Below are positions 388 to 21,786 of a stretch of 22,803 nt of DNA, piece after piece. Both the position numbers and the translations under genes were made by a program. The notes under the pieces were generated by a model. The model was not told the origin of the DNA. It made no database searches and was given only the letters and a program-made list of their open reading frames with translations. The stretch's first letter is position 1. Every line of letters starts with the position of its first letter. Origin of the DNA: a virus. The DNA lies in IMG/VR virus record IMGVR_UViG_3300035698_018046, positions 1 to 22,803 of that record; one strand, 5' to 3'.

Positions 388-421
388 TTAATGAGATATG
401 AGACACTTAATGAGATATGAG
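388..421 (+). repeat. 15-bp direct repeat (19-bp offset) across a start codon
   Basis: TTAATGAGATATGAG occurs at 388-402 and again at 407-421, so a 19-bp stretch is tandemly duplicated exactly at the start of the next gene. Because 19 is not a multiple of three, the ATG at 391 lies in a different frame from the ATG at 410. It opens a 9-codon reading frame (MRYETLNEI, stop at 418-420) that overlaps the two possible starts of the gene, 398 and 410. Confidence 0.85.
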
Positions 422-877
422 GGATATTCGACCAAAGAAAGGGTCGATGATGTTTTGGACAAAATATCCAAATATGGTATATCTACATTAACTAAGTTAG
501 AAAAAGAGTTTTTAGATGCTCACACACTAGGCAACGAATCCGAAGTACACAAAAGAATAACAAAAGAAGAATTTGAAAATGTATTTGAGGATGATTCGGG
601 TTATTTTAAATTTGAATATGAATCAATGAAAGATTTTGGTGATGAGAAACACTTTATAGGTATATTATATGTTCCAGATTTAGAATTAACAAAGACTCGT
701 AGATTGGATGGTAGATTGGAGGGTAAGATAATTAAATACAAAAATGGGCAAATTATTCCTGAGTTCGATTCGCCAATTAAAAACGGGGAGTCTTATGATG
801 TTTTAGAATTTTGTAATGGATTAGAACATGAATTAGACTCGTTTTTAGATTATATAATATCCGAGATTGATAATTAA
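398..877 (+). CDS. Conserved phage protein with DUF6576-like helical motif
   Basis: This is a 159-residue soluble protein of unknown function. Residues about 17-42 (DVLDKISKYGISTLTKLEKE) match the pattern IL-x-KI-x3-G-x2-SL-x3-E-x2-FL, a short helical motif I know from the C-termini of Bacteroidota rhomboid-family proteins (DUF6576-like); here it is near the N-terminus. The rest is acidic and unfamiliar. I chose ATG 398 because MRHLMRYEGYS resembles the N-termini of other proteins in this window (M-K/R-x-L/I-x2-aromatic-E); ATG 410 would give MRYEGYS and is the alternative. A TTAATATATATT element lies at 373-384, and the start region carries a 19-bp duplication. The protein at 21851 has the same motif. 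Confidence 0.8.
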   Translation: MRHLMRYEGYSTKERVDDVLDKISKYGISTLTKLEKEFLDAHTLGNESEVHKRITKEEFENVFEDDSGYFKFEYESMKDFGDEKHFIGILYVPDLELTKTRRLDGRLEGKIIKYKNGQIIPEFDSPIKNGESYDVLEFCNGLEHELDSFLDYIISEIDN

Positions 878-886
878 ATATATAAC

Positions 887-899
887 TTAATATATAATA
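887..899 (+). promoter_or_regulatory. TTAATATATAATA element, putative phage promoter
   Basis: TTAATATATAATA lies in the 39-base gap before the gene at 917, with 17 bases between its end and the ATG. The same core precedes the genes at 398, 1368, 3714, 7793 and 8558 on plus and 21067 and 21786 on minus. By position it resembles the AT-rich -10-like late promoter of T4-like phages (TATAAATA), but this is inference; in so AT-rich a genome some matches are expected by chance. Confidence 0.35.
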
Positions 900-916
900 A
901 AAATAAATATAAAATA

Positions 917-1276
917 ATGGTAAAAAAGTATAACCAATTTATAAAAGAATTAAACACAACAGATGAAGACGCATTTAATTATGATGAGATGGATTCTGAT
1001 GCTGATATAGAAGAAACGATGATTGATGGTGGTGTTGATGTTCTTGCAGTTAAAGACGAGGAAGATAAAATCCAACAAGAAGAAGAAGAAGGATTGGATG
1101 TTTATTTATCGAAATTACAAGAACTTGCCGATAAATTAGAGGTTGAAGTAGTAGACGGTAAAGTAGAATATAAAGGAAAAGAAATAATATTTCCTTCTGA
1201 AACAAACAAATACCATGTAGATAGAAAGAAATTTAATACCCCAGAAGAAGTTATTTCTTACTTAGGCAATCTTTAA
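917..1276 (+). CDS. Small acidic protein with capsid-targeting-like N-terminus
   Basis: A 119-residue protein that I cannot assign. The N-terminus MVKKYNQFIKE closely resembles in pattern the capsid-targeting sequence of T4 internal proteins (MKTYQEFIAE), including the I-x-E at which the T4 prohead protease cleaves; cleavage here would follow Glu11. Residues about 15-60 are very acidic (DSDADIEE, EEDKIQQEEEEG) and probably disordered. A helical segment (SKLQELADKLEVE) and a small lysine-rich C-terminal part follow. By analogy it could be a scaffold or internal head protein, but only the N-terminal pattern points that way. A TTAATATATA element lies upstream at 887-899, and the next gene is 91 bases downstream. 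Confidence 0.75.
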   Translation: MVKKYNQFIKELNTTDEDAFNYDEMDSDADIEETMIDGGVDVLAVKDEEDKIQQEEEEGLDVYLSKLQELADKLEVEVVDGKVEYKGKEIIFPSETNKYHVDRKKFNTPEEVISYLGNL

Positions 1277-3652: not shown

Positions 3653-3653
3653 C

Positions 3654-3713: not shown

Positions 3714-4460
3714 ATGAAATATATTAAGCAATTCGAATTTGTTCAAAATGATTTTGAGCCTATATCATCTTTTAAATTAAAAGATGATTTAAACCCAAAA
3801 GTATGGGAGGAAGAAACCATGAGACCAGAAGTTAGAGAGCAACTATTAACTATTGCTCAAGATTTCTTTAATACAACAGATCTTAGTGTTAAAATAAAAG
3901 ATATAATTCTAACTGGTTCTTTATCAAATTATAATTGGTCAGAGAGATATTCTGATTATGATTTACACATACTAATTGATTTCAAAGAAGTTAATGAAGA
4001 TTCTGTCTTAGTTAAAAGATTTGTTGATGCTGTTAAGAATGTTTGGAACAAACAATATGATATAAAAATAGAAGGATACGAGGTTGAGGTTTATATACAA
4101 AGTATAGAAGAACCACACAGAGCATCAGGAGTTTACTCCGTATTGAATGATAAATGGAATGTTAAACCAACTAGAGTTGATTTTGAACCGGATGATGAAT
4201 CTATAAAAGAGAAATCAAAAACCGTTATGATGTTAGTTGATGATTTATATGATGAGTTCGAAAGTTATAACTATGATGATTTTGTAAAAGAGGTCAGAAA
4301 GGTTTGGGATAAGATAAAAAGATATAGACAGTCTGGGTTAGAAAGTGAGGGTGGTGAATTCTCAACAGGAAATTTAGTTTTTAAATTACTAAGACGTAAT
4401 GGATATATAGGAAAAATATTAGATATGAGGAAAAAATCATACCAAAACCAATTTAAATAA
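3714..4460 (+). CDS. Predicted nucleotidyltransferase (minimal NTase fold)
   Basis: This 248-residue protein carries the signature of the DNA polymerase beta-like nucleotidyltransferase superfamily: L-T-G-S at 66-69, then after a spacer S-D-Y-D at 80-83 (metal ligands Asp81 and Asp83). A later strand, EVEVYI at about 123-128, can supply the third carboxylate (Glu125). Such proteins transfer a nucleotide to a protein, nucleic acid or small molecule; the target cannot be read from sequence. Similar stand-alone NTases occur in many large T4-like phages. Residues 1-10 (MKYIKQFEFV) are the recurrent N-terminus of this phage. The C-terminal part (about 160-248) is helical and charged. Its stop overlaps the next ATG (TAATG), so the two are translationally coupled. 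Fold assignment is firm, the role unknown. Confidence 0.85.
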   Translation: MKYIKQFEFVQNDFEPISSFKLKDDLNPKVWEEETMRPEVREQLLTIAQDFFNTTDLSVKIKDIILTGSLSNYNWSERYSDYDLHILIDFKEVNEDSVLVKRFVDAVKNVWNKQYDIKIEGYEVEVYIQSIEEPHRASGVYSVLNDKWNVKPTRVDFEPDDESIKEKSKTVMMLVDDLYDEFESYNYDDFVKEVRKVWDKIKRYRQSGLESEGGEFSTGNLVFKLLRRNGYIGKILDMRKKSYQNQFK

Positions 4461-5157: not shown

Positions 5158-5832
5158 ATGAAATATATCAATAAATTTAATTTTTATATCAAGGAGTCTA
5201 AAAATATAGATATAGATGAGATAAAAACTATACTACTAAGTATTGGTGATATGGGAATTGATACATCTAATATAACAGAAGGCGTTATAGTTTGTTCTGA
5301 TAAATCAGATGATAACAACGGCAGAGACTTCATAAGCATAAACATGAATTTGAGTGATTTTGATGTAACAAATGCTATCCTAGGTGGTGTTGAAAAGGTA
5401 TATATCAATGATGATTTGATTTGGGAATTTATGGATGAGTTGATTTCTATAAAAAATAAAGTCATTGGTGTTGGTGCACATAATTGTATTATTGATTTTC
5501 ATAATAACGGAGGAGGATGGGTTGTATTTAATTTAATAGTCATTGGTCAAAAAAGAGATATAGAATCAAATGAGTATAAAATTCTAGAGCTTTATAAAAA
5601 AATAAAATCTATAATTTTTCCAATGAAAACAGACTTTGCTTATGATACAATCGTGAAATTAGAAGATAATATAATAAAAATCTCAACAAATAGTTGGTCA
5701 TATACCGATAGAAAGTTTAATAATATTTTAAGAAATGCTTTGGTCTCTTGTGGATTAACTGGGAAAGACATAGAAGTATCAAAAAGTCAAAAATCAGGAA
5801 TTGGTACCATAAATAAAATTGAGATGAAATGA
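5158..5832 (+). CDS. Protein of unknown function with recurrent N-terminal tag
   Basis: A 224-residue protein without a family I can name. The N-terminus MKYINKFNFYIKES fits the shared pattern of this window and ends in I-K-E, like a T4-type prohead-protease site after Glu13. The body alternates strands and helices; a Gly-rich HNNGGGWVVFNL segment lies at about 114-125. No membrane segment is seen. Its start follows the previous stop by two bases, and its last bases overlap the next start as ATGA, so it is translationally coupled on both sides. The minus-strand frame at 5184-5465 is a shadow. Confidence 0.75.
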   Translation: MKYINKFNFYIKESKNIDIDEIKTILLSIGDMGIDTSNITEGVIVCSDKSDDNNGRDFISINMNLSDFDVTNAILGGVEKVYINDDLIWEFMDELISIKNKVIGVGAHNCIIDFHNNGGGWVVFNLIVIGQKRDIESNEYKILELYKKIKSIIFPMKTDFAYDTIVKLEDNIIKISTNSWSYTDRKFNNILRNALVSCGLTGKDIEVSKSQKSGIGTINKIEMK

Positions 5833-6260
5833 GATATATAAAGAAATTTTACAAAACTAACGAAGATATTAATAAAAATACCGACTTATATAATAAGTAT
5901 CAGGGTATAAAAAAAGAGCGTGTTGGTCCTTGTGATTTTGACACATTTAAAGATATATTGATTGAGTTATGTGATGACTATGGTGATTATAAATTTGATA
6001 AATTTGTAACTGACGTTGATGATGATGAAAATTATTATTCTTGTGTTATAGATTTGGAATTTTTAAATTTAGATTATGGATATGTTGAGAATGTAGAAGT
6101 TAATACTAATGTTTTGGTTGATTCATTTGGAAGCTATGATGATCCATATGATTTTGAATATTCATTAGATGGTAATATGGTATATAACAGAATGGATATA
6201 GAAAAGGATAAATTAAAAAAAAACACTAAAGGTTATAGAAAAAATGATGGACTCATATGA
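5829..6260 (+). CDS. Acidic protein of unknown function
   Basis: A 143-residue, Asp- and Tyr-rich protein that I cannot place in a family. The N-terminus MRYIKKFYKTNEDINK matches the recurrent M-K/R-Y-I-K-x-F start. The middle is strongly acidic (DVDDDENYYS, about 55-64) and the last 20 residues are basic (KDKLKKNTKGYRKN). It starts inside the previous stop (ATGA overlap), consistent with coupled translation. A short ORF starting at 6244 overlaps its 3' end by 17 bases in another frame. Confidence 0.7.
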   Translation: MRYIKKFYKTNEDINKNTDLYNKYQGIKKERVGPCDFDTFKDILIELCDDYGDYKFDKFVTDVDDDENYYSCVIDLEFLNLDYGYVENVEVNTNVLVDSFGSYDDPYDFEYSLDGNMVYNRMDIEKDKLKKNTKGYRKNDGLI

Positions 6261-6396: not shown

Positions 6397-6607
6397 CAAC
6401 TTCGTTATATCCAATATCATGGTTAAATCTATATTTAATAAAGTTTGATATCTCTAAACACTTTTCATATTCCTCATCTTCTTTCAATAAATCAATAACA
6501 CATTCCAATATTTCTTTTGAATAAGGTATTAAATTTTTACCATAAGGTTTACCAGATAAAATTCTATTATAGATTTCTAGACCATTTAATGTTTCTGTAT
6601 TTTTCAT
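6365..6607 (-). CDS. Small phage protein with UVR-like YEKC motif
   Basis: An 80-residue protein, probably helical. Its core, about residues 27-60 (PYSKEILECVIDLL then EEYEKCLEISNFIKYRFNHD), resembles small phage proteins with a helical hairpin of the UVR type (E-x-Y-E-x-C-x2-I/L), a motif used for protein-protein contact in UvrB/UvrC; this similarity is from memory and not decisive. Its ATG overlaps the stop of the gp47-like gene (TAATG), so it is translated together with that nuclease. It could be a partner or regulator of the nuclease; that is inference from position. Confidence 0.7.
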   Translation of the reverse strand: MKNTETLNGLEIYNRILSGKPYGKNLIPYSKEILECVIDLLKEDEEYEKCLEISNFIKYRFNHDIGYNEVVIFQLYQSKY

Positions 6608-7722
6608 TAATCTAAATTTGAATAGCTCTCTTTATAAATCTTTATTATATCACCATACTCATCGAGTATTCCCTCTTTGAATTTATCATTATCATATTTT
6701 TGTTTTAAAATGAATTCTTTAACATAATCCTCATAATCTAATTTTATAGATATGTCTATTGAGTCCTCATCTATTTCTTCAATAATCTCATCATCTTCTA
6801 ATTCGTTTGTTATATCATCTATGTAGTCAATGGATGTGAAGTTTCCCTTTTCTAATAAGATTTCTAATTTTCTTCTTAGTTTTCTATTAGATATTAATAA
6901 ATTATTTGATATTGTTATATCAATATAATCCTTGGTATCTTTTAACTCTTCGAGTAATTCTATATCATCTTCTTCGGCTATTCTAACTTTTTTAAAAACA
7001 GGAGATATATTATTTTTTATAAATTCCTCTTCCCCAGTAACAACATCAATAACAAAAATGCCTTTTTGGTCACCATAATCATTTCTATCCATCTGGAAAT
7101 TTGAACCAACAAAAACAAAATTCTTACTTTTTTGAACTAAATGGATGTGACCAGAATAAACACCTTTGAACCCACTAAATTCATCAACATCAATCTTATC
7201 TAGGTTTTTATGACCAATGGATGTTAAGTGCATCTTAGCACCATTTAAATCTGAATGACAAAATAGATAATCACAATCTTTGTTATTATTTATGTGAAAT
7301 ATCTGGTCTTTCTTTTTCATTAGATAAGGCATCAATAATAACTTATTTCCTTTATATTCTATTTTTGTGGTTTTATCATAAATATGAACATTCGGTATGT
7401 ATTTAAATGGTCTTATCGTGTTTATTTCATCCGAACTCCTTGACCAACAATCATGATTTCCCACTATTATGTGCAGTGGTGCTATTTTTGATATAGCTTC
7501 AACTTGATCCATAGCAAAGTTCAATAAATTAATAGGAATAACATTTCTATTATCAAATAGATCACCTAAGTGTATTATTATGTCACCTGGTTCTATTCTC
7601 TCTTTTAGTGTGGGTATTAGGAAGTCATTGAAGTATTCTTGGTGTATCCTTAACCACTTATCTGTTTTGTTGGGATATCCCAAACCTATGTGGGAATCAC
7701 CAACTAGGTAAATTTTACTCAT
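6607..7722 (-). CDS. 47: SbcD/Mre11-type nuclease subunit, T4 gp47-like
   Basis: A 371-residue calcineurin-like phosphoesterase with all the metal motifs of the SbcD/Mre11/gp47 family: V-G-D-S-H-I-G (Asp9, His11), G-D-L-F-D-N-R (53-59), G-N-H-D (88-91), C-H-S-D (His156) and G-H-I-H (191-194). It would form a Mn-dependent exo/endonuclease with an SbcC/gp46-type ATPase to process DNA ends during recombination-dependent replication. T4 gp47 is about 340 residues, so the length fits. The C-terminal third (about 240-371) is charged, with an acidic stretch DDEIIEEIDEDSID, and probably forms the capping and ATPase-binding region. In T4 gene 46 is adjacent, but no gp46-like gene is in this window. 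It lies in a two-gene minus-strand island between plus-strand genes. Confidence 0.9.
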   Translation of the reverse strand: MSKIYLVGDSHIGLGYPNKTDKWLRIHQEYFNDFLIPTLKERIEPGDIIIHLGDLFDNRNVIPINLLNFAMDQVEAISKIAPLHIIVGNHDCWSRSSDEINTIRPFKYIPNVHIYDKTTKIEYKGNKLLLMPYLMKKKDQIFHINNNKDCDYLFCHSDLNGAKMHLTSIGHKNLDKIDVDEFSGFKGVYSGHIHLVQKSKNFVFVGSNFQMDRNDYGDQKGIFVIDVVTGEEEFIKNNISPVFKKVRIAEEDDIELLEELKDTKDYIDITISNNLLISNRKLRRKLEILLEKGNFTSIDYIDDITNELEDDEIIEEIDEDSIDISIKLDYEDYVKEFILKQKYDNDKFKEGILDEYGDIIKIYKESYSNLD

Positions 7723-7792: not shown

Positions 7793-8470
7793 ATGAATCA
7801 CTTAAAGTTATTTGAATCTTTTAATAATTATATTGATTTCTGTGATATTTTTGGTGAATCATTAATTAGAGGCGTTGATATTGATATAGATGAGTATATA
7901 GATGATCCTAAATTAAGAAAAATATCATCTGGGTCATCTAAGGAAGAAGATTATGTTTCTTTTCTTAAAAATTATAAAAATATAGGATTACAAGATCCAC
8001 TTAAATCAATTCACTTCTACTTAAATCCAACTAATGACCAAATAAAATACCTAGATTGGTATGGTAATTCATATAAACCAATTCCTCACAAAGATGCCGT
8101 ATTTTCATTTAATAAGGAGTTACGAAATGGTGGTCTTGGTTCTACGTGGTTTTTCTTAGAAAGAACATTAGAAGATTTTTTAGGTATGTCAGAAGATGAT
8201 ATAGGTAAATTATTTATTAACGAATATGGATATCATTTAGGTCCACCATCACCATCCTTTTCAACAGTTAAGTTATTATTAAAGGAACTCTATAATGAAA
8301 ATAAATTAGATTTTTTTAAAAAGTGCTCTGAATATCAGAATCTTTTAGTCGAAGGTGGTGTCTTGGGTAATCTTACTTATAATGAGCTTTTGGAACTATC
8401 AAAGGATGGAAAATTAAATTTACAAATATGGACGGAAAGCCCGGTGCTTCACCAGAGGATAAGATATTAG
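7793..8470 (+). CDS. Protein of unknown function with LFE-type N-terminal tag
   Basis: A 225-residue protein that I cannot assign. It begins MNHLKLFESFNNY, which fits the recurrent N-terminus and contains L-F-E, a T4-type prohead-protease site after Glu8. The body is mixed, with acidic IDIDEYIDDP at about 31-40, an aromatic, Gly-rich segment (RNGGLGSTWFFLERTLEDFLG, about 111-131), GYHLGPPSPSFSTV at 145-158 and an amphipathic C-terminus. No membrane span is seen. It stands alone before the tail tube gene. An 8-bp hairpin overlaps its stop (8467-8487) but lacks a clear T-run. The sequence could suggest an internal head protein only through its N-terminus. Confidence 0.75.
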   Translation: MNHLKLFESFNNYIDFCDIFGESLIRGVDIDIDEYIDDPKLRKISSGSSKEEDYVSFLKNYKNIGLQDPLKSIHFYLNPTNDQIKYLDWYGNSYKPIPHKDAVFSFNKELRNGGLGSTWFFLERTLEDFLGMSEDDIGKLFINEYGYHLGPPSPSFSTVKLLLKELYNENKLDFFKKCSEYQNLLVEGGVLGNLTYNELLELSKDGKLNLQIWTESPVLHQRIRY

Positions 8471-8557: not shown

Positions 8558-9181
8558 ATGCCGTTACCGCACTTTACTCAAATTTCAAACGTAGGCTCTC
8601 CTGGTGGACCAGGAACCTTACCAGATGAGGTTGTATATTTAAATCTCTTTGAGGTTACATTTATATTACCTGTAATCCTACAAGCACAAGGAAGAGACCC
8701 TATTCTATTATTAGAAAATGCTACAAAAATTAGCTTAGGTGCATTAACTAGCTTTGATATACAGAATGTTAAACAACGTTTCAAGTATTCAACTAGAGAG
8801 TTCTTAACAACACCAACCATAACATCTGGTGAGATAATGATACCATTTCAAGTAAATGTTAACCAACAAGGATCTATGGAAAATTGGACAACAATGAAAG
8901 CTTGGTATGATTTGGTATTTAATTCACAAAATGGTTCTCTACACTATAAAAGTGATATAATAGGAACAATAATAGTAAATCAACACGATAAAAAAGGAGT
9001 CGTTCTTAGAAGAGTAACTTTTCAGAACTGTCAGTTAAAGATACTAACAGGATGGGAGTTAGATTGGTCATCAAACAATATTGTTGATAGCGTTGATGCA
9101 ACATTTGTTTATGATTATTTCATAGATGAATATATAGATCAAAACTTCACAATATCACCACCTATTATTTCTGGATATTAA
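8558..9181 (+). CDS. 19: Tail tube protein, T4 gp19-like
   Basis: A 207-residue protein of the contractile-phage tail tube family (T4 gp19 is 163 residues). Supporting segments are the N-terminal loop (PLPHFTQISNVGSPGGPG), the YLNLFEVTFILP strand, FDIQNVKQRFKYSTREF, and the C-terminal strands RRVTFQNCQLKILTGWELDWSS and DATFVYDYF, matching the beta-barrel order of gp19-type tubes. It polymerises as hexameric rings to form the inner tube through which DNA passes, inside the sheath. In T4-like phages it normally follows the sheath gene; here the sheath is more than 4 kb away on the other strand. A strong terminator follows after about 20 bases. The minus-strand frame at 8578-8820 is a shadow. 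Confidence 0.88.
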   Translation: MPLPHFTQISNVGSPGGPGTLPDEVVYLNLFEVTFILPVILQAQGRDPILLLENATKISLGALTSFDIQNVKQRFKYSTREFLTTPTITSGEIMIPFQVNVNQQGSMENWTTMKAWYDLVFNSQNGSLHYKSDIIGTIIVNQHDKKGVVLRRVTFQNCQLKILTGWELDWSSNNIVDSVDATFVYDYFIDEYIDQNFTISPPIISGY

Positions 9182-11650: not shown

Positions 11651-13356
11651 CCAACCCATTCCCATTTCTTTAAACCACAATCCCATATTCTATAAGAATT
11701 TATTTCATTGTACATTATCTCTCTTTCTGATTTGTTTTTATCATAGCCCATTTTTATTAGTCTAGATTTTCTATATTTAGATTTATGAACACGCTCATTA
11801 CCAATGACCCATTTATAGTTTACATCTGATATACCAACCATATTAAATCCTAATTTTTCATATAGTCCACCATTAAATAATGATAAATCCGAATAGGAAA
11901 TTATTTTAGATGTGTTGTTATTTCTTATGAAATGTTTTAGAAGCCTAGATGATCCACCAATTACACTAGTATTTAAAATATTTGAAAACCTCGAAAGCTC
12001 ATATGAATCACACCCCACCTCTTCTCTATTCTTACCAAAGCACATCAAGCTAACCAATTCATTATTATAATATAAGCCAATTTTTATTTTAGACTTATTA
12101 TCACCTTGTATATGATTTTTATTTAAAAATTTACTGGATTCCTCTTTCTTAACTTCTCTAATCTCGCACTTTCTAGCGTATATTTTGTTTTCGATTTTAT
12201 GTAGTTTGTTTTTTATTATTGATTTTACTATATCATTTTTTAACTTCCAATCATCCTCCCATATATGTATTAGTTCAATTCCAATCGATTCACATAATTT
12301 TGTCTTTTTTATATGGTAATTTTTGTCTTTATTTAACTCTGAGTGCCAATATAACCCATTGAATTCAAATGCTAGATTAATATCAGGTAAATAAATATCT
12401 AATTCTTTACCATTTAATAATTTTCTATCCGATCTTATTATCTCATCATTATATATCTCATTTATAAAATTAAACAAGGAAACTTCTTGACCAGATATGT
12501 GTTTTTTTAATGGGTTACAATTTGTGCATATAATAGTTTCTTGTTTGTGTCTTATTTGTAGATGCTCTCTATGTATTTTGAATTCACTTTGACAATCATT
12601 ACATTTAAATTTAATTTTCCTATTTTCATAATTTATATCAATTAAATCTATATTAATATTATCTATTTTTAGAAGAACACTCTCATATAATGAATTTTCT
12701 TTTGATATTTTTGTTTTAATTGTGCCCTTTTTATGTATTTCTTTGTTGCTCCAAGGGTGGTGATATCCATACCTTTCAAGTGAAGTTTTTTTATAACTTT
12801 TATTCCATGATTCTATATTCATCTTAAATGATTCTATTCTTTTATTTATTATTTCATCAACCTGATTAACATTATCCACTCCATATTTCTCCTTTACAGT
12901 ATTTAATCTTTTATCCTTTATCTTCTGTTTTTCTACCTTTGTCCTATTTTGATATTTTTTTGATATTTTTTTCTTTATATCCTTATTCATGGAAGCATGT
13001 TTATCTCCATATTTTAATATATTTGAATCTTCTTTCTTTTTCTTTATTTTAGGATCTAAACCAACACACCTATTTGAGCAGTAATTAAGATAGCCAATTT
13101 TTGAGTTCTTAAATTTGACTTTTTTTTCACAAAAGTCATTTTTACACAAAACGATACTATTTATATTACTATAACATAGATATACTTTTTCTTTGAATGT
13201 CAGTTCGTCTATTAATGAATAACCATCTATTATATACTTATAATCATTTTTAAAATTATTTAACACATATTTTTCGGAAGACATTTTTCCGGATTTATTA
13301 TTGAACTTATATTCTTCTATAAATTTATCACTTAACATAGTTTGATATTTTAACAT
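11647..13356 (-). CDS. Free-standing homing endonuclease with zinc clusters, Vsr/PD-(D/E)XK-like nuclease and GNAT-like C-terminus
   Basis: A 569-residue protein. Domain order: a Cys4 cluster (Cys71, 76, 93, 97); three repeats of the K/R-YG-x4-N type (about 114-125, 156-166, 194-204) that in such enzymes probably contact DNA; a second Cys4 cluster (252, 255, 277, 280); and a nuclease core at 310-370 with ELDIYLPDINLAFEFNGLYW (Asp320, Glu331, Asn333) and IHIWEDDW (His364, Glu367, Asp368), as in Vsr-like/EDxHD phage homing enzymes. Residues about 385-515 (NHIQGD, GLYYNNELVSLMCFG, SYSDLSLFNGGLYEKLGF) look like an acetyltransferase-type (GNAT/Mom-like) fold. It would cut a specific DNA site so that the gene spreads. 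It stands between the sheath gene and an LRR gene, with no visible intron. It is flanked by a direct repeat (11630-11650 and 13388-13407), suggesting how it arrived. Confidence 0.85.
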   Translation of the reverse strand: MLKYQTMLSDKFIEEYKFNNKSGKMSSEKYVLNNFKNDYKYIIDGYSLIDELTFKEKVYLCYSNINSIVLCKNDFCEKKVKFKNSKIGYLNYCSNRCVGLDPKIKKKKEDSNILKYGDKHASMNKDIKKKISKKYQNRTKVEKQKIKDKRLNTVKEKYGVDNVNQVDEIINKRIESFKMNIESWNKSYKKTSLERYGYHHPWSNKEIHKKGTIKTKISKENSLYESVLLKIDNINIDLIDINYENRKIKFKCNDCQSEFKIHREHLQIRHKQETIICTNCNPLKKHISGQEVSLFNFINEIYNDEIIRSDRKLLNGKELDIYLPDINLAFEFNGLYWHSELNKDKNYHIKKTKLCESIGIELIHIWEDDWKLKNDIVKSIIKNKLHKIENKIYARKCEIREVKKEESSKFLNKNHIQGDNKSKIKIGLYYNNELVSLMCFGKNREEVGCDSYELSRFSNILNTSVIGGSSRLLKHFIRNNNTSKIISYSDLSLFNGGLYEKLGFNMVGISDVNYKWVIGNERVHKSKYRKSRLIKMGYDKNKSEREIMYNEINSYRIWDCGLKKWEWVG

Positions 13357-13430: not shown

Positions 13431-16400
13431 TTATCCGTTTATAAATCCACCGGCTGATATAGCCCCAGTTCTAAGTATTGTGATATTATTAACGATAATA
13501 CCCATACCGCGTATGGGTTCAACATAAGTATCAAGAACACCAATTTGGTTATCTATAATCTCAGATGTATTATTTTCATCATCCATTTTATTGAAGTAAT
13601 TATATAATCCATTTTTACTTACATATGTTTCACAAATAACATCAGCTCTAAGTTTTATCTCAGCTCTAACATCAGGTGTGTTAAATTTCCATTGATAATC
13701 TAACAACATTCTTGATAATTCTCTTTCTAGTTCAATAAGAACTTCTCTTACGTGAATATAAGAAAGTGCTGATGAATAAAGAACTTGTCCAGTATTCTCT
13801 GTTTCGATTATATATCCTCTATTTCTTTTGAATACAATAGGATTCATTTGAGCTAGATTTAAATTCTCTATATCAGATGGTGAATAATCCATTTCCAATC
13901 CAGCGATATTAGTAATTCTACCATTTGTAACACCCGCTGCAATAGTCCAAGGAGTAATTGCAGTAACATTTGAGATATGTTTTCTCATGTATGTTGTAGC
14001 GGCATAAGACGCTGGCGGCATATCCAATGGTCTTCCATTATCATTCACTGTTAAGTAAGGTGTGAAATATCCAACTGTTGTTGTTCCGGCTCCCTCTCCA
14101 AATGAGTAAAGGAAAGCTGGGTTACTTTCTGGGTCACCACCTTGGCCTATGAATGAAGTTTGTAATGTTCCCTCACTATCTACAAAAGATGGTGATGATG
14201 AATTTTTGAAACTTCTCAACGAAGGCATATTTATGAACCCAAAGGCATCTAATCTATCTCCACAGATATCTACCAATTGTTGTTTAGATCTTTCAACCAA
14301 ACCAAGTCCAAATGAATCAATTAAGTATCTGAAATCAATGGCTTCTTTGTTAGTAAGAGCTTTGAACATTGGTGTTCCTTTAGCTACTAAGTTTAAGATT
14401 TGATTTTGTCTATCTTCTGTACCATCTGGTAATGAATTTCCTCTTACTTTAAAACCTTTAAGTGATAGAGCCTTGTATGTAGTAGCATAATTATCTATTC
14501 CAACATATCTCATTGATTGTAAATCATCTGTACCATAAGTATAAACTTTTATTCTTGAATCACAAGTTATCTCAGATAATGATGTGTCTCCTGAATATTG
14601 TCTTTTGCTTAGTATTCTAGTAAGTTTCCTCGCAACTTGACCAGCTTCTAAAACAACATCTGTATCAACATATGCTTCAAGGAAGTCACCGATTTTTACT
14701 TCAGTATATCTATCAGCTTTTACTAAAACTTTGTTGTTTTCTCTAACATAACCACTTGGCACTTCTATCTCAAGTGATTGTTTAAGGTTAGATTTTGATG
14801 ATTGTATAAATATTGTATTATTCGCTGTTGTGTTTATAGAATTTGTGGCTTCTAGTAATTCATCAGTGAAGTTTACTATCATATCACCATCATTTTCTAT
14901 ATACATTTTAAGGTATATTAAATCAGAATAATCATATACTAAATCAACATCAAATAAATCTTCTGCAACTACTTCTTCGTTAACTTGGTAGGCATAAAAA
15001 TCACCACCCGTATATCCAAGTGCAATAGCTAATAATGAAGGACTTAATGATGTTACCTCATCTGTCATTATTGTGAATGTTCCTGGGTTATTTAATGAAC
15101 TAGGAACTAAAATTTGTTCTCCTGTTTGTAGAGCCATCTCTAAACTAACTGTATCGGTTGATCCAAAAACTACATAGTCATACCCAGCATAAGAGAAAGT
15201 TGGACTACCATTTGGTGAGTCTTCGCCATCTACAAATGTTATTGTAACTGTTTCTCCTAATAAGGCATTAGTGGTTCCAGTTGAATCAACATATAGTCTA
15301 TTTGTATTAAATGTATCTTTTGTATTTATTATTCCATCATAGAACCTACTATATAATAAGGAGTCTTTGGCAACAACCCCCATACCACTTAGATCAGCAG
15401 TATTATTTGTTGTTTCTAATCCATCTTCTCCGAATATTATTTCATTATCAACTGTATATATAACTAAGTAACCATCAACAACATCTACTAAATCCGATGA
15501 TGTTAATGTTGTTTGTAATTCGAATGATTTATTTTCGAATGTAGAAGTTACTATGTTTGATATAGAAGCATCTTCTAATCTATATTTTATAGAATAATTT
15601 GTTGGTCCTAAGTTCATAGCCATTTTATCTAAGTTGGCACTATCTAATAAATTAACTAATCTATTAAAAAGTTTAAATCTTCTATATTGTTTATAATTCT
15701 TAACATCAGGTGTTGTGTTTGTTCCTAAGAATTCAAATGTTAGTTTACCACTACCATTATCTAATATCGTTAAATCAGTTCCTAATACCAAATCCACATA
15801 ACCAATATCACTCATTGATACTTCTACTGGTGTAACACTAGATGTTGCGAAATAACCAGCTGGCGTAACATCAAAATCTACGTAACTCAAAACGATATCC
15901 GTTGATAATACACTAGGTGAATCACCAGCGGTGAATGATTTATTTAACTTTATCTCACCATCATCTCCTAATATAAGAGCCACTTTATAAGAAGCGGTTG
16001 CTGATGTTGTTGGATAATCTGTATTATTAATAGATACTGAAACAGTACCAGGAGCTATATCTATTTTTTCATCACCAATTATGGTAAAAGAACCCTCATC
16101 TACGACATGGCTAACACCTATTTTTGTTTCATTTATTATAACAGACCCAACATCTAAATTAACTCCATATATAGAGTTCTCAGAGAACCAAGCCGTTCTA
16201 TTGTCAAAAAGTACAACTCCATCATCATCAAGTGTGCTAGTAGTTAAATCACCACCATAAGCGTGTTTTTCTTGTCCTGTATATGAAAATCCGGAAGATG
16301 TGTTACCAAGAAATGATGTAACATTACCAGGCAAATCTAAAGGAGTTGCTGTTATTTCTATTTCTTCTGAAATAGTCTCTTTATATGATAAAAATTCTAT

Positions 16401-17363
16401 ATCTTTTTCATTTACACCAACTACTGTGTTTCCTAGTAAATCTATTTTACCATTGTAAAATTCTTCTTCGATTAAATCGTTGTTGAATGCACAAAATAAA
16501 CCAGTTGTATCTGTATCTCTATTTATTGTTGTTTCAATAAATATATTTGTTCCATTAAGATCTCTGAAATAAGGTATCAATGATACTCCTTCATAATAAG
16601 ATAATAATGTTATATTTCTATCATTTGCAAAATTTCTAACTTGTTCTTTTAATAAACCAGACGGGTTAAAATATTCACTCCATCTTGGATCCACTGACAA
16701 TTCTTGGTAATTTGACCAATCACCACCAACCACTATTACGTCTAATAAATAATCAGATGCGTAATCTTGTGCGTTAACATAAGGAGGCATTTTCTCAACT
16801 GATCCATACCATTCTAATAGTGTTCTATCAAATCCACTTCTTGATGATTTGAAAACAAATGCCGTTATTGGTCTATCGGATAAATTTGTTAAATTAAATG
16901 CTCTTTCAGAATAACCTGTGTTACCTGATGTTAAATTTATAAAAGATTCTGTGTCTCTTTTCCAAAATCCAGTTGTATCGAATAACCTTCTATAAGGTCC
17001 TTCTCTTTTTATATCATTATCATATACAGCAGCTGATGAAAGTGATTTGTACTCAACCGTGTCTAATTCATCATCTGTTAATAATAAGTTCATAACGAAG
17101 ACCGGGGCCGTTTCTAACATTTTAGAAACTGTTCTATGAAAGAAAGATCCTTTTCTTTCTAACCCTCTGTCTAATTGACCAAAGATAGATTCAAGTGATT
17201 GAATAGATGTTAATCTTATAGGAGCATTGAATGGGCCTTTTTTAGAAACACCTATAACAAGATTAGTTAAACCCTCGACAATAGGTGAGGAAGTTAATGA
17301 TTCGTCATATTCTTCTATGAATATACCTGGTCTATTATATTTTCCAATTTGAATATTTGCCAT
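13431..17363 (-). CDS. 18: Tail sheath protein, about twice the usual length (T4 gp18-like)
   Basis: A 1310-residue protein with both ends typical of contractile tail sheaths. The N-terminus reads NRPGIFIEEYDESLTSSP with VIGVSKKGPFNAPIRLTS. The C-terminal part (about 960-1310) includes the CGDRLDAFGFIN segment near 1033-1044, then ALSYIHVREVLIELERELS and WKFNTPDVRAEIKLRADVI (about 1194-1250), and ends TILRTGAISAGGFING. These make the inner sheath ring that contacts the tube and contracts on infection. T4 gp18 is 659 residues. The extra length is a long insertion, roughly residues 320-960, rich in Thr, Ser, Asp and beta strands with no catalytic motif, probably one or more domains projecting outward. 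It ends 9 bases before a terminator. The gene is intact; the plus-strand frame at 14149-14403 is a shadow. Confidence 0.93.
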   Translation of the reverse strand: MANIQIGKYNRPGIFIEEYDESLTSSPIVEGLTNLVIGVSKKGPFNAPIRLTSIQSLESIFGQLDRGLERKGSFFHRTVSKMLETAPVFVMNLLLTDDELDTVEYKSLSSAAVYDNDIKREGPYRRLFDTTGFWKRDTESFINLTSGNTGYSERAFNLTNLSDRPITAFVFKSSRSGFDRTLLEWYGSVEKMPPYVNAQDYASDYLLDVIVVGGDWSNYQELSVDPRWSEYFNPSGLLKEQVRNFANDRNITLLSYYEGVSLIPYFRDLNGTNIFIETTINRDTDTTGLFCAFNNDLIEEEFYNGKIDLLGNTVVGVNEKDIEFLSYKETISEEIEITATPLDLPGNVTSFLGNTSSGFSYTGQEKHAYGGDLTTSTLDDDGVVLFDNRTAWFSENSIYGVNLDVGSVIINETKIGVSHVVDEGSFTIIGDEKIDIAPGTVSVSINNTDYPTTSATASYKVALILGDDGEIKLNKSFTAGDSPSVLSTDIVLSYVDFDVTPAGYFATSSVTPVEVSMSDIGYVDLVLGTDLTILDNGSGKLTFEFLGTNTTPDVKNYKQYRRFKLFNRLVNLLDSANLDKMAMNLGPTNYSIKYRLEDASISNIVTSTFENKSFELQTTLTSSDLVDVVDGYLVIYTVDNEIIFGEDGLETTNNTADLSGMGVVAKDSLLYSRFYDGIINTKDTFNTNRLYVDSTGTTNALLGETVTITFVDGEDSPNGSPTFSYAGYDYVVFGSTDTVSLEMALQTGEQILVPSSLNNPGTFTIMTDEVTSLSPSLLAIALGYTGGDFYAYQVNEEVVAEDLFDVDLVYDYSDLIYLKMYIENDGDMIVNFTDELLEATNSINTTANNTIFIQSSKSNLKQSLEIEVPSGYVRENNKVLVKADRYTEVKIGDFLEAYVDTDVVLEAGQVARKLTRILSKRQYSGDTSLSEITCDSRIKVYTYGTDDLQSMRYVGIDNYATTYKALSLKGFKVRGNSLPDGTEDRQNQILNLVAKGTPMFKALTNKEAIDFRYLIDSFGLGLVERSKQQLVDICGDRLDAFGFINMPSLRSFKNSSSPSFVDSEGTLQTSFIGQGGDPESNPAFLYSFGEGAGTTTVGYFTPYLTVNDNGRPLDMPPASYAATTYMRKHISNVTAITPWTIAAGVTNGRITNIAGLEMDYSPSDIENLNLAQMNPIVFKRNRGYIIETENTGQVLYSSALSYIHVREVLIELERELSRMLLDYQWKFNTPDVRAEIKLRADVICETYVSKNGLYNYFNKMDDENNTSEIIDNQIGVLDTYVEPIRGMGIIVNNITILRTGAISAGGFING

Positions 17364-17434: not shown

Positions 17435-17959
17435 TTATTGAATCTTCTCTATCCAGTTTTCCATGTCGGACTTTATCTTAATCATCCTTTCTTCGTGTTC
17501 TTTCTCTAATTCTGGTAATCCCTTTTTCTTATCGTTTGTTTTCGATTTTATATCATTTATTTGATCTTTTACTTTAGATATTCGATCATTTATTGATGGT
17601 TTTGACTCATCACTAGCGTCTGATAATCTATCATTCAACTCTTTTACCTCTAGGTATTTCTCACTTTCTTTTACCTTTAAATCTTCTATTGATTTTTTCA
17701 TAGAGGCTATTCCAGAGTAACTGACAAGAAATTCATTCCTATCACCATCTTTGCCTACTATTTTTTCTAATTCTCCTTGTGGAACATCATCGGATTTATA
17801 TAAATTATCAATCGCTGATTTTTTAGAATTAAAATCTGATAATTTAATTTTTAAATCATTTAATTTTTCTTTAGACATCTTCACTGATGCTTCGTCAGTA
17901 TCTGTTATCTCAAATTCATCAGATTCAATGAATAATTTGTATTTTTTTATAATCTTCAT
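17435..17959 (-). CDS. Coiled-coil protein of unknown function
   Basis: A 174-residue protein, almost entirely charged helix. Residues about 30-170 carry many heptad-like stretches (KLNDLKIKLSDFNSKKSAI, EDLKVKESEKYLEVKELNDR, DRISKVKDQINDIKSK), so a coiled coil or helical bundle is likely. The N-terminus MKIIKKYKLFIESDE fits the recurrent pattern with F-I-E near position 12. It starts three bases after the stop of the 1034-residue protein, so the two are co-translated, and it precedes the sheath gene by 71 bases. It could be a scaffold-like or assembly partner of the large upstream protein. The plus-strand frame at 17751-17966 is a shadow. Confidence 0.78.
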   Translation of the reverse strand: MKIIKKYKLFIESDEFEITDTDEASVKMSKEKLNDLKIKLSDFNSKKSAIDNLYKSDDVPQGELEKIVGKDGDRNEFLVSYSGIASMKKSIEDLKVKESEKYLEVKELNDRLSDASDESKPSINDRISKVKDQINDIKSKTNDKKKGLPELEKEHEERMIKIKSDMENWIEKIQ

Positions 17960-17962: not shown

Positions 17963-20900
17963 TTAATATTTCTTTAATATTTCTATCATACCACCATAAT
18001 TACTACTATCTCCATTTTCTTTACCTATGCTTGTTGGTGTTTCTGATGGTACCTTAATAATATCACCACCACCATCTTTAAGAGAATAGAATTCCTTTAT
18101 ATCAAATGAATCACTAATCAGTTCTACTTCATTAATTTTTGTCGCAAATTTGGATACATCTATAGACTTTATATCAAATGAGGTTACTTGTGTATCATCA
18201 AATGTTTTTTTATCTATTTTTCCAAAAAACATTTCAGATTTTTGGAAATTCATACCTTTTATAGCACCTTCTACTATTTTGAAATCCTCTTTGCAATATT
18301 TTGCAATATTTTGAAAAGATTTAGAATATTTCAGATATACGCTATCTTCATTCTCTTTTATGAAAATTATATAGTAGATATTATCATCTGATAATTTAAT
18401 AGAATGTATTGATCTATGTTTATTTTCTATACTTTTAACAGACTCAAATTTAGCAGTTACTCTTTCACTAGGCTTTATTTCCACTTCTTCCACATCATCA
18501 ACAGGTTTCTTACCATCAGTAGGTTTATTATCACCAGGGTTTTTATCTCCATCTTTAATACCAAAATATTTTTCTATGAATATTTTCTGAGCACCTTTTT
18601 TATATAATTTGGTATCACCATCTAATAAATCATTAATAAACTTTAATAAAACCTTTCCGCCTCCTTTTAGTTTTCTACCATCACCCATATTTATAGATGT
18701 GTCTTTGTCGAATATTTTTTTATATTCATCATCCTTTATTATATCTAATATAGCCCCTTCGAATTTATCAAACATCTTATTATTTCTCCAAGGCCCACTA
18801 CCAGGAGTATCAGGAGATGAATTACCACTACCCATGTTTGTATATTCTCTAAACACACTATTTGATACTTTTCCACCGGATCTTCCTGATGGTATCACTA
18901 AGGTTGTATAAATTTTATATGCTTGGTTGAATAATTTAACAACTTCAATTATGTGACCGAATGGTATTTCTTTTATCTTATTTTTTGATTCCTCAGCAGT
19001 TTTCTTTATATCTTCAACATCAGATTTCTCTATTATCCATCTATCATAATCCATTTCTCTTGAGAAATATTCTTTTATTTCAGTAGATGTTCTATCAACC
19101 TTTGCTTTTACAAACTCATTCATCTTCATGAAAGATTTGTAATTTGATAACTTTTCATTCTTCTCAAAATCTGTATTTATTAATTTAGTAAATAATTTAT
19201 TGAATGTCTCTAGTGGTTTTCCAATTATTCCTAAACCACCATACATATATTGTCCTTCAAATTGTAGTGAAAATTTAGCGAATCTTGAAATTTTATCAGA
19301 ATATACTTGTCTTTTTCTTATATCTGATATTTCGGCCATTCCTTCAAATAACTCACCAATATCACCCATTCTATTGAACGTTTCTTTTATATCAATCATA
19401 AATAACTTTATAGCCTTCGAGTTTACGGATTTACCAGAAATATCCAGTTCTTTTGCTTTTGTTATTATGTCACCTAAAAACTCTCCATCTACTCCATTAT
19501 CACTAAGAACTTTTATTTGTTTTTTTATCTTAGATAATGCTTTATTAAGTTGTTCTTCTTCCACTGAAAGTTCGGTTCTTTTTTCTAAAATAGATTCTGA
19601 ACTGAAAAAACTAAAAGATTCTTTTACTGTTGTCATACTAGGCTCACTAATTTTGACCTTTGATTTTTCTCCCTTTTTCGGTAGTTTAGGAGTTGGTGAT
19701 TTTATAGAAACCACTTTCCCTTGGTTTGTTATAACATCTTCTTCAGATTGGTATTTTTTACCATAATATTCGATAGCTTCCTTTTTTGTATCAAGGATTA
19801 TTGCTTTGCTAAGTATTGTATTTATATTTGTTGGTATTTGATTCTTTACCGGTGGTGTCAAAAACTCAACCCTACTACTAACATCACAACTTCCTATCTG
19901 CGTTTTGTAAAAATTATAATTTCTAGATGGCATAACTAACCACTTTCCCTTTATATTAGCATTAAACCAAGCTACTTCTTTTTCATTTAATTTAAAATCT
20001 TTGTTACTATTTATTACACTTTCTATATCTTTTAATTGAGCAAAGATATATTTAGATATTCTAACTATTATTTCTTTATTAAATGGTAAAATCTTTGGTG
20101 TTGATTTCCCTACATATCTTTTATTTGTAGTATCATATTTTGGTATATTAACTACCAATTCACCACTTTCATTTAATTCTATTAATTTTTTAGTTTTTCT
20201 ATACATTATACTATTTCCAGATATTTCCAAAATAGGCCATTTTGATACTTTACTATCCGATAATAAATTATTTGTGAATTTTTTATCACTTGGTCTGAAT
20301 TCATTTATAGATTTTATTATATTACTAAGAACATAATTTATACTTTTATTAGTCTTCTTATCATCCGCATCCTTTTCGGCCGTAGTTATAACATTATTTT
20401 TATTATCTATTACTAATTTTAGATTTTTTAGAATAGATATCATTTCAGAATATTTTATTTTTGGCATTTCCACAAGGCCAGGATCTTTATCAGATCCTTC
20501 TTCATCTCCCTCATCTTCTTTTTCTTCATCTTCTTCCTCATCAAATTCGGTTTCACCATCTTCTTCATTGAAGGTTTTAAGGAATTTTAAGAAATCTTCC
20601 AATTGTTTTATAAGTTCTAATTTAGCTTCTTCTGATATATCATATTTTCCATCTTTTAATGATGTTTTTGATATTTTATATTCTTTAACCCAAGTTATTA
20701 AATTCTTTGTTTGTATAATTAAGTATTTTACTTTTCTACCTTCAAAAACAGAATCTCTTAAATCACCCAATAGTTGTGATAATGTGACAAATCCAATCAC
20801 TTCGGTCTCTTCTGAGGCATTTTTTATAGAATCTAATAGAATAGCATTAAATTCAGCTTTTATAGCTCTAGACTTTGATCCTATCTTTATTGTATTTGCG

Positions 20901-21067
20901 CCAATTTGCATTTTTCTTGATATCGAATTCAATAACCTACCAACCAGAGAGTCTCCCCAGTTTATATCATTACCCATTGGGCCACTACCCTCACCAGACA
21001 TATCAAATTTTTCAAAAATTTTATTTTCTTTGTTTAAAAATTTATCTCTACCTTTTAAAAACTTCAT
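17963..21067 (-). CDS. Large protein of unknown function, probably structural or head-packaged
   Basis: A 1034-residue protein without a family I can name. It begins MKFLKGRDKFLNKENKIFEK, a longer version of the recurrent N-terminus with I-F-E at 17-19. A Gly-rich stretch and NDINWGDSLVGRLLNSI follow (about 33-49). A highly acidic low-complexity segment lies at about 169-200 (EFDEEEDEEKEDEGDEEG). Later come helical regions, a Gly/Ser/Pro-rich loop near 750 (NMGSGNSSPDTPGSGPW) and a linker KNPGDNKPTDGKKPVDD near 845-861. A small beta-rich C-terminal domain ends the protein. No transmembrane segment or enzyme motif is seen. Size, modular build and place between two tail-region genes suggest a virion component. 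Seven plus-strand frames inside it are antisense shadows. Confidence 0.8.
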   Translation of the reverse strand: MKFLKGRDKFLNKENKIFEKFDMSGEGSGPMGNDINWGDSLVGRLLNSISRKMQIGANTIKIGSKSRAIKAEFNAILLDSIKNASEETEVIGFVTLSQLLGDLRDSVFEGRKVKYLIIQTKNLITWVKEYKISKTSLKDGKYDISEEAKLELIKQLEDFLKFLKTFNEEDGETEFDEEEDEEKEDEGDEEGSDKDPGLVEMPKIKYSEMISILKNLKLVIDNKNNVITTAEKDADDKKTNKSINYVLSNIIKSINEFRPSDKKFTNNLLSDSKVSKWPILEISGNSIMYRKTKKLIELNESGELVVNIPKYDTTNKRYVGKSTPKILPFNKEIIVRISKYIFAQLKDIESVINSNKDFKLNEKEVAWFNANIKGKWLVMPSRNYNFYKTQIGSCDVSSRVEFLTPPVKNQIPTNINTILSKAIILDTKKEAIEYYGKKYQSEEDVITNQGKVVSIKSPTPKLPKKGEKSKVKISEPSMTTVKESFSFFSSESILEKRTELSVEEEQLNKALSKIKKQIKVLSDNGVDGEFLGDIITKAKELDISGKSVNSKAIKLFMIDIKETFNRMGDIGELFEGMAEISDIRKRQVYSDKISRFAKFSLQFEGQYMYGGLGIIGKPLETFNKLFTKLINTDFEKNEKLSNYKSFMKMNEFVKAKVDRTSTEIKEYFSREMDYDRWIIEKSDVEDIKKTAEESKNKIKEIPFGHIIEVVKLFNQAYKIYTTLVIPSGRSGGKVSNSVFREYTNMGSGNSSPDTPGSGPWRNNKMFDKFEGAILDIIKDDEYKKIFDKDTSINMGDGRKLKGGGKVLLKFINDLLDGDTKLYKKGAQKIFIEKYFGIKDGDKNPGDNKPTDGKKPVDDVEEVEIKPSERVTAKFESVKSIENKHRSIHSIKLSDDNIYYIIFIKENEDSVYLKYSKSFQNIAKYCKEDFKIVEGAIKGMNFQKSEMFFGKIDKKTFDDTQVTSFDIKSIDVSKFATKINEVELISDSFDIKEFYSLKDGGGDIIKVPSETPTSIGKENGDSSNYGGMIEILKKY

Positions 21068-21086
21068 ACTATTACTTTATATTTTG

Positions 21087-21098
21087 TTTATATATTAA
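21087..21098 (-). promoter_or_regulatory. TTAATATATAAA element (minus) before the 1034-residue gene
   Basis: On the minus strand TTAATATATAAA spans 21098 to 21087, ending 19 bases before the ATG at 21067 and overlapping the last codons of the LRR gene. The spacing is close to that at 887 and 1340 on the other strand, which supports a shared promoter-like element. Confidence 0.35.
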
Positions 21099-21786
21099 TA
21101 TATCCTTCGACTTTATTAACCGATTCTTTTCCTATGTCTTCTAGGAATGAATTTAGTCTATCTAAAATAATAGCTGGGTTTCCATCAACCTTTCTAAAGA
21201 TGTCATAATCACTTAGAATTTCTATTTTATCCAAATCTTTAAATAATTTCCAGACTTCATAGACTGGATTATCATTACAATCAAAACCACCACCGACTGA
21301 AGTTGGAGAGCCCTCTAATGAAGTTAATTTGTTATTATGGCAATAAAAATCACCACCGACTGAAGTTGGAGCACCTTCTAATGAAGTTAATTTGTTATTA
21401 TGACAATAAAAATCACCACCGATCGACTTTGGAGCAAACTCTAGTGAAGTTAGTTTATTATCACTACAATAAAAACCTCCACCAACTGAAGTTGGGGAAC
21501 CTTCTAATGAAGTTAAATTATTATTATGACAATAAAAATTACCACCGACTGAAGTTGGAGCACCTTCTAATGAAGTTATTTGATTATCATAACAACTAAA
21601 ATCACCACTAACTTTTCTAAACTTCAGTGGAATTTTAGTTAATTCCTTCTTATATAAATAAACATCACCATCAACATCAATTGAATGGTCTTTATTTATA
21701 GTATAATTTTCGATATTATGCTTTTTACAGATGGTATGGATTTTCTCATCAGAATTAAAGTTTTCAAATATTTTTAAGTAATTCAT
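21088..21786 (-). CDS. Leucine-rich-repeat phage protein, paralogue 2
   Basis: A 232-residue protein with five nearly regular 21-residue repeats at about 71-173 of the form T-S-L-E-G-A/S-P-T-S-V-G-G-x-F-Y-C-x-x-N-x-L. The DNA behind them is also highly repetitive. The repeats give an LRR-like solenoid with a stack of Cys, Asn and Leu positions. An N-terminal cap (NYTINKDHSIDVDGDVYLYKKEL) and a C-terminal part (AIILDRLNSFLEDIG) match the shorter paralogue at 11028-11612. It begins MNYLKIFENFN, with I-F-E at 6-8, fitting the shared N-terminal tag. The role is unknown; protein binding is the usual LRR function. It is divergent from the gene at 21851 and 20 bases upstream of the 1034-residue gene. 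Confidence 0.85.
   Translation of the reverse strand: MNYLKIFENFNSDEKIHTICKKHNIENYTINKDHSIDVDGDVYLYKKELTKIPLKFRKVSGDFSCYDNQITSLEGAPTSVGGNFYCHNNNLTSLEGSPTSVGGGFYCSDNKLTSLEFAPKSIGGDFYCHNNKLTSLEGAPTSVGGDFYCHNNKLTSLEGSPTSVGGGFDCNDNPVYEVWKLFKDLDKIEILSDYDIFRKVDGNPAIILDRLNSFLEDIGKESVNKVEGYINI
21291..21605. repeat. 63-bp tandem DNA repeats inside the LRR gene
   Basis: The CACCGAC-type segment recurs at 21291, 21354, 21417, 21480 and 21543, exactly 63 bases apart, with strong identity across the units; the second and fifth units differ at few positions. A degenerate unit follows. This DNA encodes five 21-residue LRR repeats. Such repeats can expand or contract in frame by recombination. Confidence 0.9.

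Follow-up and report, generated by a model that had tools for sequence, protein, structure and literature searches.

Why do proteins with unrelated bodies, encoded on one stretch of phage DNA, begin with nearly the same few residues? The question is raised by IMG/VR record IMGVR_UViG_3300035698_018046 (22,803 nucleotides, hereafter the window), in which a first-pass annotation had noted a shared N-terminal start on many proteins and had likened it to a capsid-targeting sequence (CTS) ending in a prohead-protease site. We scored 25 open reading frames (ORFs) of the window and searched for the shared start, here called the tag, in related genomes. The tag is likely to be a T4-type capsid-targeting propeptide carried by tens to ~150 proteins per genome, and its carriers would be packaged in the head and probably injected.

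The ORFs and N-termini quoted in that annotation were all present in the sequence where it had placed them, and nine of its starts were accepted as tagged. On the plus strand these belong to a 159-aa protein at 398..877 (tag MRHLMRYEGY, 398-427; profile score 11.2), a 119-aa protein at 917..1276 (T4-like tag MVKKYNQFIKE, 917-949; site IKE|L), a 248-aa protein at 3714..4460 (MKYIKQFEF, 3714-3740; score 12.0), a 224-aa protein at 5158..5832 (MKYINKFNFYIKE, 5158-5196; site IKE|S; score 12.2), a 143-aa protein at 5829..6260 (MRYIKKFYK, 5829-5855; score 8.3), and a 225-aa protein at 7793..8470 (MNHLKLFE, 7793-7816; site LFE|S; score 18.2). Those on the minus strand are a 174-aa protein at 17435..17959 (MKIIKKYKLFIE, 17924-17959; site FIE|S; score 13.4), a 1034-aa protein of unknown function at 17963..21067 (MKFLKGRDKFLNKENKIFE, 21011-21067; site IFE|K; score 5.7), and a 232-aa leucine-rich-repeat-like protein at 21088..21786 (MNYLKIFE, 21763-21786; site IFE|N; score 15.0; LRR_4). 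Six of the nine tags contain [ILVFY]xE, and the sites had been read correctly at 917, 5158, 7793, 17959, 21067 and 21786. A tenth start, proposed at 11603 as a weaker case, was rejected; it scored -6.5, and the ORF begins at 11612.

The untagged tail sheath protein of the window (13431..17363, minus strand; PHROG tail sheath, E=2e-90) was 69% identical to that of LR745206 (W01, 634 kb), 62% to that of LR756502 (W02, 642 kb), and 44-45% to those of LR756504 (W03, 636 kb) and LR756501 (W04, 735 kb), so that the window belongs with relatives of the largest phages known; LR756500 (W05, 462 kb) was analyzed as well. The genomes of these relatives were described in 2020 by Al-Shayeb et al., who reported the four largest complete phage genomes, those of the Mahaphage clade, with predicted hosts among the Bacteroidetes (PMC7162821). 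Orthologues of window proteins commonly start alike: that of the protein at 398 (W02_118688) begins MKHLMRYEGY, those of the protein at 917 begin MIKKYNQFVND and MAIIKKYNQYIKKINE, that of the protein at 5158 in W01 carries MKHLTQFFDYIKES, and a W04 homologue of the protein at 3714 reads MLKYNSFIKEE. The orthologues of the protein starting at 17959 read MKYLKKYKIFLEAD and MKYLKGYSSFNED; in W01 and W02 they lie near the gene for the sheath. The 1034-aa protein was accepted despite its sub-threshold score because both of its orthologues are tagged (MKYLSKRSEYLKSAKYKVINES and MRYLKQREEFIRNNKYSLIKEE). The protein at 5829 is the weakest accepted case, with a score of 5.0 under a profile built from W02 only.

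A profile seeded with five window N-termini only (3714, 5158, 5829, 7793 and 21786; threshold score 8) selected 60 of the 935 ORFs of W01, against 0.6 expected from shuffled N-termini or 1.5 from internal methionines. After iteration it selected 107 of 935 (controls 0.7 and 1.8), together with 133 of 965 ORFs in W02, 33 of 671 in W05 (scanned to 460 kb), and 11 of 1014 in W04, where ~0.1-1 were expected. Of the four phages compared by tail sheath, the genome-wide scans covered W01, W02 and W04. Conversely, the W02-only profile, which is independent of the window, gave scores of at least 8 for 6 of the 25 window ORFs (per-ORF shuffle probability 0.0014, p = 1.3e-12), and a profile trained on LR745206, combined with a regular expression for the T4-like form, tagged 8 of 25 against 0.05-0.1 expected. 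In W04, the core [YF]xx[FY][ILVMF]xE occurred within residues 1-20 of 57 proteins, versus 3.5 after shuffling, and in 4, 2 and 1 proteins at residues 21-40, 41-60 and 61-80; the combined total for this genome was 68 versus 5.4 expected. The whole-genome scan that the first-pass annotation had proposed was thus strongly positive, with 37 to ~154 tagged proteins per genome.

The tag is restricted to phages. A DNA pattern for MK[YH]LKx[FY]NE[ST]-like starts matched 98 IMG/VR stretches, where 95 of 112 matches were ORF starts and 312 of the 1229 genes at these loci were tagged; across 257 Gb of cellular genomes the same pattern gave a single match, which did not coincide with the start of an ORF. 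When tag peptides were searched by tblastn against named phages, only huge-phage records were returned, with E values of 2-9.

Two intergrading forms of the tag can be recognized. Form B has the grammar of T4, as in MIKKYIQFINEA of W04, which comes close to the T4 tag itself, and in MVKKYNQFIKE at window position 917 (the T4 proteins IPII and IPIII read MKTYQEFIAEA), and a long form, MKYIKEYEEFILEA, is found in W05. Applied to 66 ORFs of T4 (61-109 kb), the regular expression for the T4-like form selected exactly IPII and IPIII. The aromatic spacing of T4 (Tyr4, Phe7) was seen in the 735-kb and 462-kb phages, in form B tags, and in the window tags at 917 and 5158. Form A is shortened and is frequent in W01, W02 and the window (MKHLKKFNES, MKYLKTYKIFES, MNYLKIFEN). 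In T4, ten residues of IPIII are enough for packaging, residues 4 and 7 serving in targeting and residues 8 and 10 in processing, and the protease gp21 cuts after L/I-X-E (PMC9026906). The huge-phage tag is an extra N-terminal piece whose end is often [ILFY]-x-E followed by S, A or N: across four genomes, 48-56% of tagged proteins had [ILVFY]xE[SAN] at residues 5-24, as did 62% of those from the IMG/VR loci, versus 10-15% after shuffling. This site is most frequent at residues 7-15, with a maximum that varies among genomes, and its frequency levels off further along; the P1' residue is Ser in 30% of tags versus 7% of background.

The tag is modular. In W01, the bodies of 125 tagged proteins fell into 119 clusters, bearing out the view that the start is conserved apart from otherwise unrelated proteins; the corresponding figures were 139/148, 43/46 and 31/36 in other sets and 8/8 in the window. 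An 84-aa protein of W01 (W01_93266) and its W02 orthologue consist of the tag joined to the mature capsid protein's arm (BLASTP 9e-10). The junction reads KKFIE|NADGSSTSGMGAVSSAQPGGLAGTT as compared with SINE|NAYANASNVSGMGAVVAAQPASLAGTT in the capsid protein (in a shorter view, FIE|NADGSSTSGMGAV and INE|NAYANASNVSGMGAV), so the tag stands in for the capsid pro-region at the predicted cut. In enzymes, the tag precedes the region of homology. The alignment of a tagged glutamyl-tRNA synthetase (GluRS) with solved GluRS structures begins only at residue 18-26; this protein, encoded on an IMG/VR contig (L246:1573-3363, minus strand), thus carries the tag as an N-terminal extension. In a tagged DeoC aldolase (L174), homology starts at residue 18, which corresponds to residue 5 of the enzyme, so that the 13 additional residues, MKKIKNYTQFIKE, end at the site IKE|, and a tagged T4-type RNA ligase 1 (Rnl1) aligns from residue 23-25. 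Among W01-W02 orthologue pairs, 28 were tagged on both sides, 19 on one side and 360 on neither (odds ratio 112), and several of the 19 one-sided pairs still look tag-like by eye. Orthologues were detectable for 28% of tagged bodies versus 52% of untagged ones, as expected for host-interaction proteins.

A cognate protease is present in the relatives, where the first-pass annotation had suggested looking for one of the gp21 type. PF03420 (the gp21-type S77 protease) was matched in 7 of 8 relatives at E<=0.1, 3 of them above the Pfam cut-off, mostly near the capsid gene gp23, and, together with gp23 in every case, in 9 of 16 long tagged IMG/VR records. Aligned to T4 gp21, the proteases of the relatives keep the motifs NRNxRxY, GExDHP and VSSRxxG. 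Behind the protease, apparently within one chain (LR745206 198546-200669 and homologues), comes a scaffold-like region, which in the lineage of the window contains 6-12 copies of [ILV]AE[NSTAG], mostly 14 residues apart, versus 0.3-0.5 after shuffling; the 14-residue repeat is absent from W05 and from the cultured Tenacibaculum phage PTm1. The fused chain is possibly a self-fragmenting protease-scaffold.

Near its end, before the GMG/GRG motif, the pro-region of the capsid protein contains INE|N, MNE|N, IHE|N, LYE|N, IYE|S or INE|S in 17 of 17 non-T4 sequences. In position, this predicted site corresponds to LTE|A (residue 65) of T4 gp23, which we take to be the cleavage site of that protein; MAFFT gave no column-to-column match to T4 because the pro-regions differ in length. 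The [ILFY]xE tag ends, the [LI]AE|N scaffold repeats and the INE|N-type capsid pro-regions thus share one predicted cleavage grammar. Separately, small ORFs (~57-93 aa) matching internal pieces of gp23 occur far from the capsid gene (W01 440206, W02 466252, G003 81791 and 304199, G001 49320, G010 105641).

Family matches are lacking for most tagged proteins; the 125 of one genome yielded 14 Pfam families. Those of W01 include NUDIX, RNA ligase 1, DHH-like phosphoesterase, M15 peptidase and methyltransferases, as well as a 2H/Acb1-like phosphodiesterase fused to a DEDD exonuclease. W01 also encodes a tagged class III adenylate/guanylate cyclase (LR745206 528558, L051:8558-9241; PF00211, E=2e-19) with a weak match to the Pycsar cyclase PycC; a cyclic-nucleotide synthase packaged by a phage, if that is what it is, would be unusual. 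The IMG/VR loci add GluRS, DeoC, pterin dehydratase, a polyvalent-type ADP-ribosyltransferase, SET, ankyrin and C39 peptidase. In the window, the protein at 3714 has a nucleotidyltransferase-like motif by eye, matches the function-unknown phrog_36119 (E=7e-44) and has no relative in PDB; the 1034-aa protein has homologues only in two huge relatives and in one overlapping, 100% identical contig.

The largest tagged family, cluster 117 of W01, W02 and W04 (e.g., L167:978-2633), has 44 proteins, often tagged; of a 34-member cluster, 19 are in the 735-kb phage. Its members share a conserved core, and some have a DnaJ-like CxxCxG repeat tail. A GNAT acetyltransferase fold was considered for this family, but an AlphaFold model based on only 7 sequences (mean pLDDT 57) showed weak, uniform resemblance (best E 0.016), and it is not claimed.

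In W01, proteins without the tag are, among others, DnaB-like and other helicases, DNA polymerase, topoisomerase II, ligase, ribonucleotide reductase, thymidylate synthase, UvsX, SbcC, the portal and the head protease. The core replication enzymes all come from the untagged sets; the equal frequency of the pattern among such enzymes, which the first-pass annotation had named as telling against its proposal, was thus not what was found. An apparent tagged DNA primase was set aside, being a 193-aa protein that matches only part of the primase profile. Likewise, the N-terminal extensions of ribosomal protein S21 reported in 2020 were considered as tags and rejected, the phage S21 frames being 64-72 aa long and untagged where readable.

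Composition offers one explanation of the shared start, since lysine- and tyrosine-rich N-termini are expected in an AT-rich phage and the G+C content here is ~28%. The shuffled and internal-methionine controls, ~50-100 fold too low, refute it, as does the finding that PTm1 and MaF61, processed with the same ORF calling, have no tagged ORFs, and its probability is negligible. Descent from one paralogous family that diverged everywhere except at the N-terminus would fit the tandem arrangement of tagged genes (45 and 67 neighbouring pairs, where 16 and 23 were expected) and the existence of some true paralogues. This account too is refuted, and is barely credible, given bodies that belong to known unrelated families (GluRS, DeoC, NUDIX, RNA ligase, cyclase, ankyrin, SET), the 119 clusters and the position of the tag outside the enzyme homology. 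The peptide might instead be a by-product of a translation or expression element, that is, an A-rich start with a dedicated promoter. Relevant here is the promoter-like window motif TTAATATATA, which lies 13-40 bases before the start codons of the genes at 398, 917, 1368, 3714, 7793, 8558, 17963 and 21088 (14 bases upstream at 7793) and which in the relatives has a counterpart in the 60 bases preceding 46-48% of tagged genes versus 17-18% of untagged ones. Inside the tag, however, codon choice stays near the genomic pattern, and one and the same peptide is spelled by different DNA sequences, which places selection at the level of the peptide. The aromatic and Glu positions are also constrained across the forms, and the motif precedes the untagged DnaB-like helicase and UvsX genes, for which reason a tag-specific late promoter was rejected. 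An expression element is therefore very improbable as the origin of the tag.

A signal for some other place in the infected cell (a phage compartment, the membrane, the ribosome or a host complex), with the E-end as part of the signal and not as a protease site, is unlikely. It would accommodate the many tags without a good site and the enzymes among the cargo that could act in the infected cell, and packaging is itself a prediction. Against it stand the match of tag ends to the predicted scaffold and capsid protease sites, the tag-capsid-arm fusion at such a site, and a grammar shared with the proven targeting sequence of T4; a hydrophobic run of at least 7 residues near the N-terminus, of the Sec or lipoprotein signal type, was found in just 3 of 355 tagged proteins.

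Several observations weigh against capsid targeting as the function of the tag. The tagged phages are uncultured, and gene starts were called mechanically. The tag is absent from the cultured relatives PTm1 (0 of 303 ORFs) and the Flavobacterium phage MaF61, and from the first 220 kb of Lak. No [ILVFYM]xE occurs within residues 5-26 of the window tags at 398, 3714 and 5829, which have no clear gp21-type site, and 40-50% of tagged proteins overall have no clear [ILVFY]xE[SAN]. Form A tags, which most tagged window genes carry, have Tyr/His3 and Phe/Tyr7, an aromatic spacing unlike that of T4, and for those of the MKYLKxFNES type the site must be F/Y-N-E, which is looser than the L/I-x-E of T4. 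The S77 matches in W01-W04 reach 20-25 bits, under the Pfam cut-off of 27. The PF03420 search of the window gave no match, because the record is a 22.8-kb fragment, and no capsid-like ORF was seen among its ORFs, so the protease and capsid evidence is drawn from relatives. Lastly, the presence of the upstream motif before the DnaB-like helicase and UvsX genes means that it is not specific to late genes and leaves late timing unproven.

On the capsid-targeting reading, packaging, cleavage, injection and the functions of individual cargo proteins are all predictions from sequence. A basic/aromatic N-terminal peptide of 8-20 residues would guide the protein that bears it into the core of the prohead, presumably by attaching to the scaffold. 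The gp21-type S77 protease, for which the fused scaffold and the capsid pro-region are further predicted substrates, would cut after [ILFY]-x-E at the tag end, so that the mature protein is set free within the head. When the phage infects, at least part of the cargo would probably be ejected with the DNA as a ready-made kit, including counter-defence, nucleotide-signalling, RNA-repair, metabolic and translation enzymes. More tentatively, the largest known phages may send in, along with their DNA, a proteome made beforehand that comprises 50-150 different proteins, all directed by one removable N-terminal address. If so, an aminoacyl-tRNA synthetase, metabolic enzymes, a class III nucleotide cyclase and 2H/cyclic-nucleotide phosphodiesterases would be among the delivered proteins; takeover of the host and evasion of its immunity would start before any phage gene is expressed; and genome gigantism would in part be the cost of the delivered arsenal.

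Other window genes provide a contrast to the tagged set or bear on particular members of it. The tail tube protein (8558..9181, plus strand; PHROG tail tube, E=1e-13) is an untagged virion protein, and an SbcD-like nuclease subunit (6607..7722, minus strand; PHROG, E=2e-53) is an untagged DNA-metabolism enzyme. The tagged leucine-rich-repeat-like protein at 21088-21786 has an untagged paralogue at 11028-11612, which adjoins a homing-endonuclease-like gene (11647-13356, minus strand; PHROG, E=5e-115). The start of the gene at 10485-11042 (minus strand) is apparently frameshifted, a tag-like start sitting in another frame; LR745206 has a tagged, intact orthologue (440351), and intact copies also occur elsewhere.

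In the open-access literature we found no report of a shared capsid-delivery tag in huge phages. A text search of the paper describing the genomes (PMC7162821) gave no occurrence of 'prohead', and N-terminal extensions are mentioned there only for ribosomal protein S21. The tag makes 37 to ~154 mostly family-less proteins per genome a defined and testable class, that of head cargo that is probably injected. It also yields, from sequence only, a list of counter-defence and takeover proteins that are candidates for injection in phages that cannot be cultivated, predicts the mature N-terminus of many carriers, and offers targeting tags for loading very large capsids.

Phage P1 DarA and DarB and their relatives are counter-defence proteins that are packaged in the head and injected, as is predicted here for tagged proteins; we know of no common short N-terminal tag of this kind on them. 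The polyvalent proteins of phages and conjugative elements are likewise predicted to be effectors that are packaged and injected, and their domains include anti-defence, ADP-ribosyltransferase and other enzymatic ones, but they carry many domains per long chain (PMC5512222). The tagged proteins are instead mostly short, separate proteins with a common removable tag and a median length of 160-183 aa. The inner-body and ejection proteins of phiKZ and SPN3US are similar in that they come from giant phages with many packaged head proteins and a diverged gp21-type protease that cuts after Glu. The phiKZ site is, however, S/A-x-E (PMC9026906), whereas the phages studied here have [ILFY]-x-E and a single common short tag; no S/A-x-E motif characterized the tags, which are enriched for F/I/L/Y at P3 and for E at P1.

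The closest parallel is the CTS of the T4 proteins IPI, IPII, IPIII and Alt, which is processed by gp21. Both systems have a short N-terminal peptide with an aromatic-xx-Phe-Ile-x-Glu core on unrelated bodies, a gp21/S77 protease and a gp23-type capsid, and the same grammar is found in the 735-kb and 462-kb phages (e.g., MKYIKEYEEFILEA). The internal proteins of T-even phages are diverse defence proteins in which the targeting sequence alone is conserved (PMC3012670), and foreign proteins given the T4 tag are packaged and delivered (PMC9026906). T4, however, tags a handful of proteins where the huge phages tag 37 to ~154 per genome, and the huge-phage cargo includes recognizable metabolic, translation and signalling enzymes. 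In the 634-kb and 642-kb phages, the tag is shortened (MKHLKKFNES) and F/Y is allowed at P3, and the huge-phage protease shares a chain with a scaffold of 14-residue repeats. Most likely, then, the principle known from T4 has been expanded 10-40-fold.

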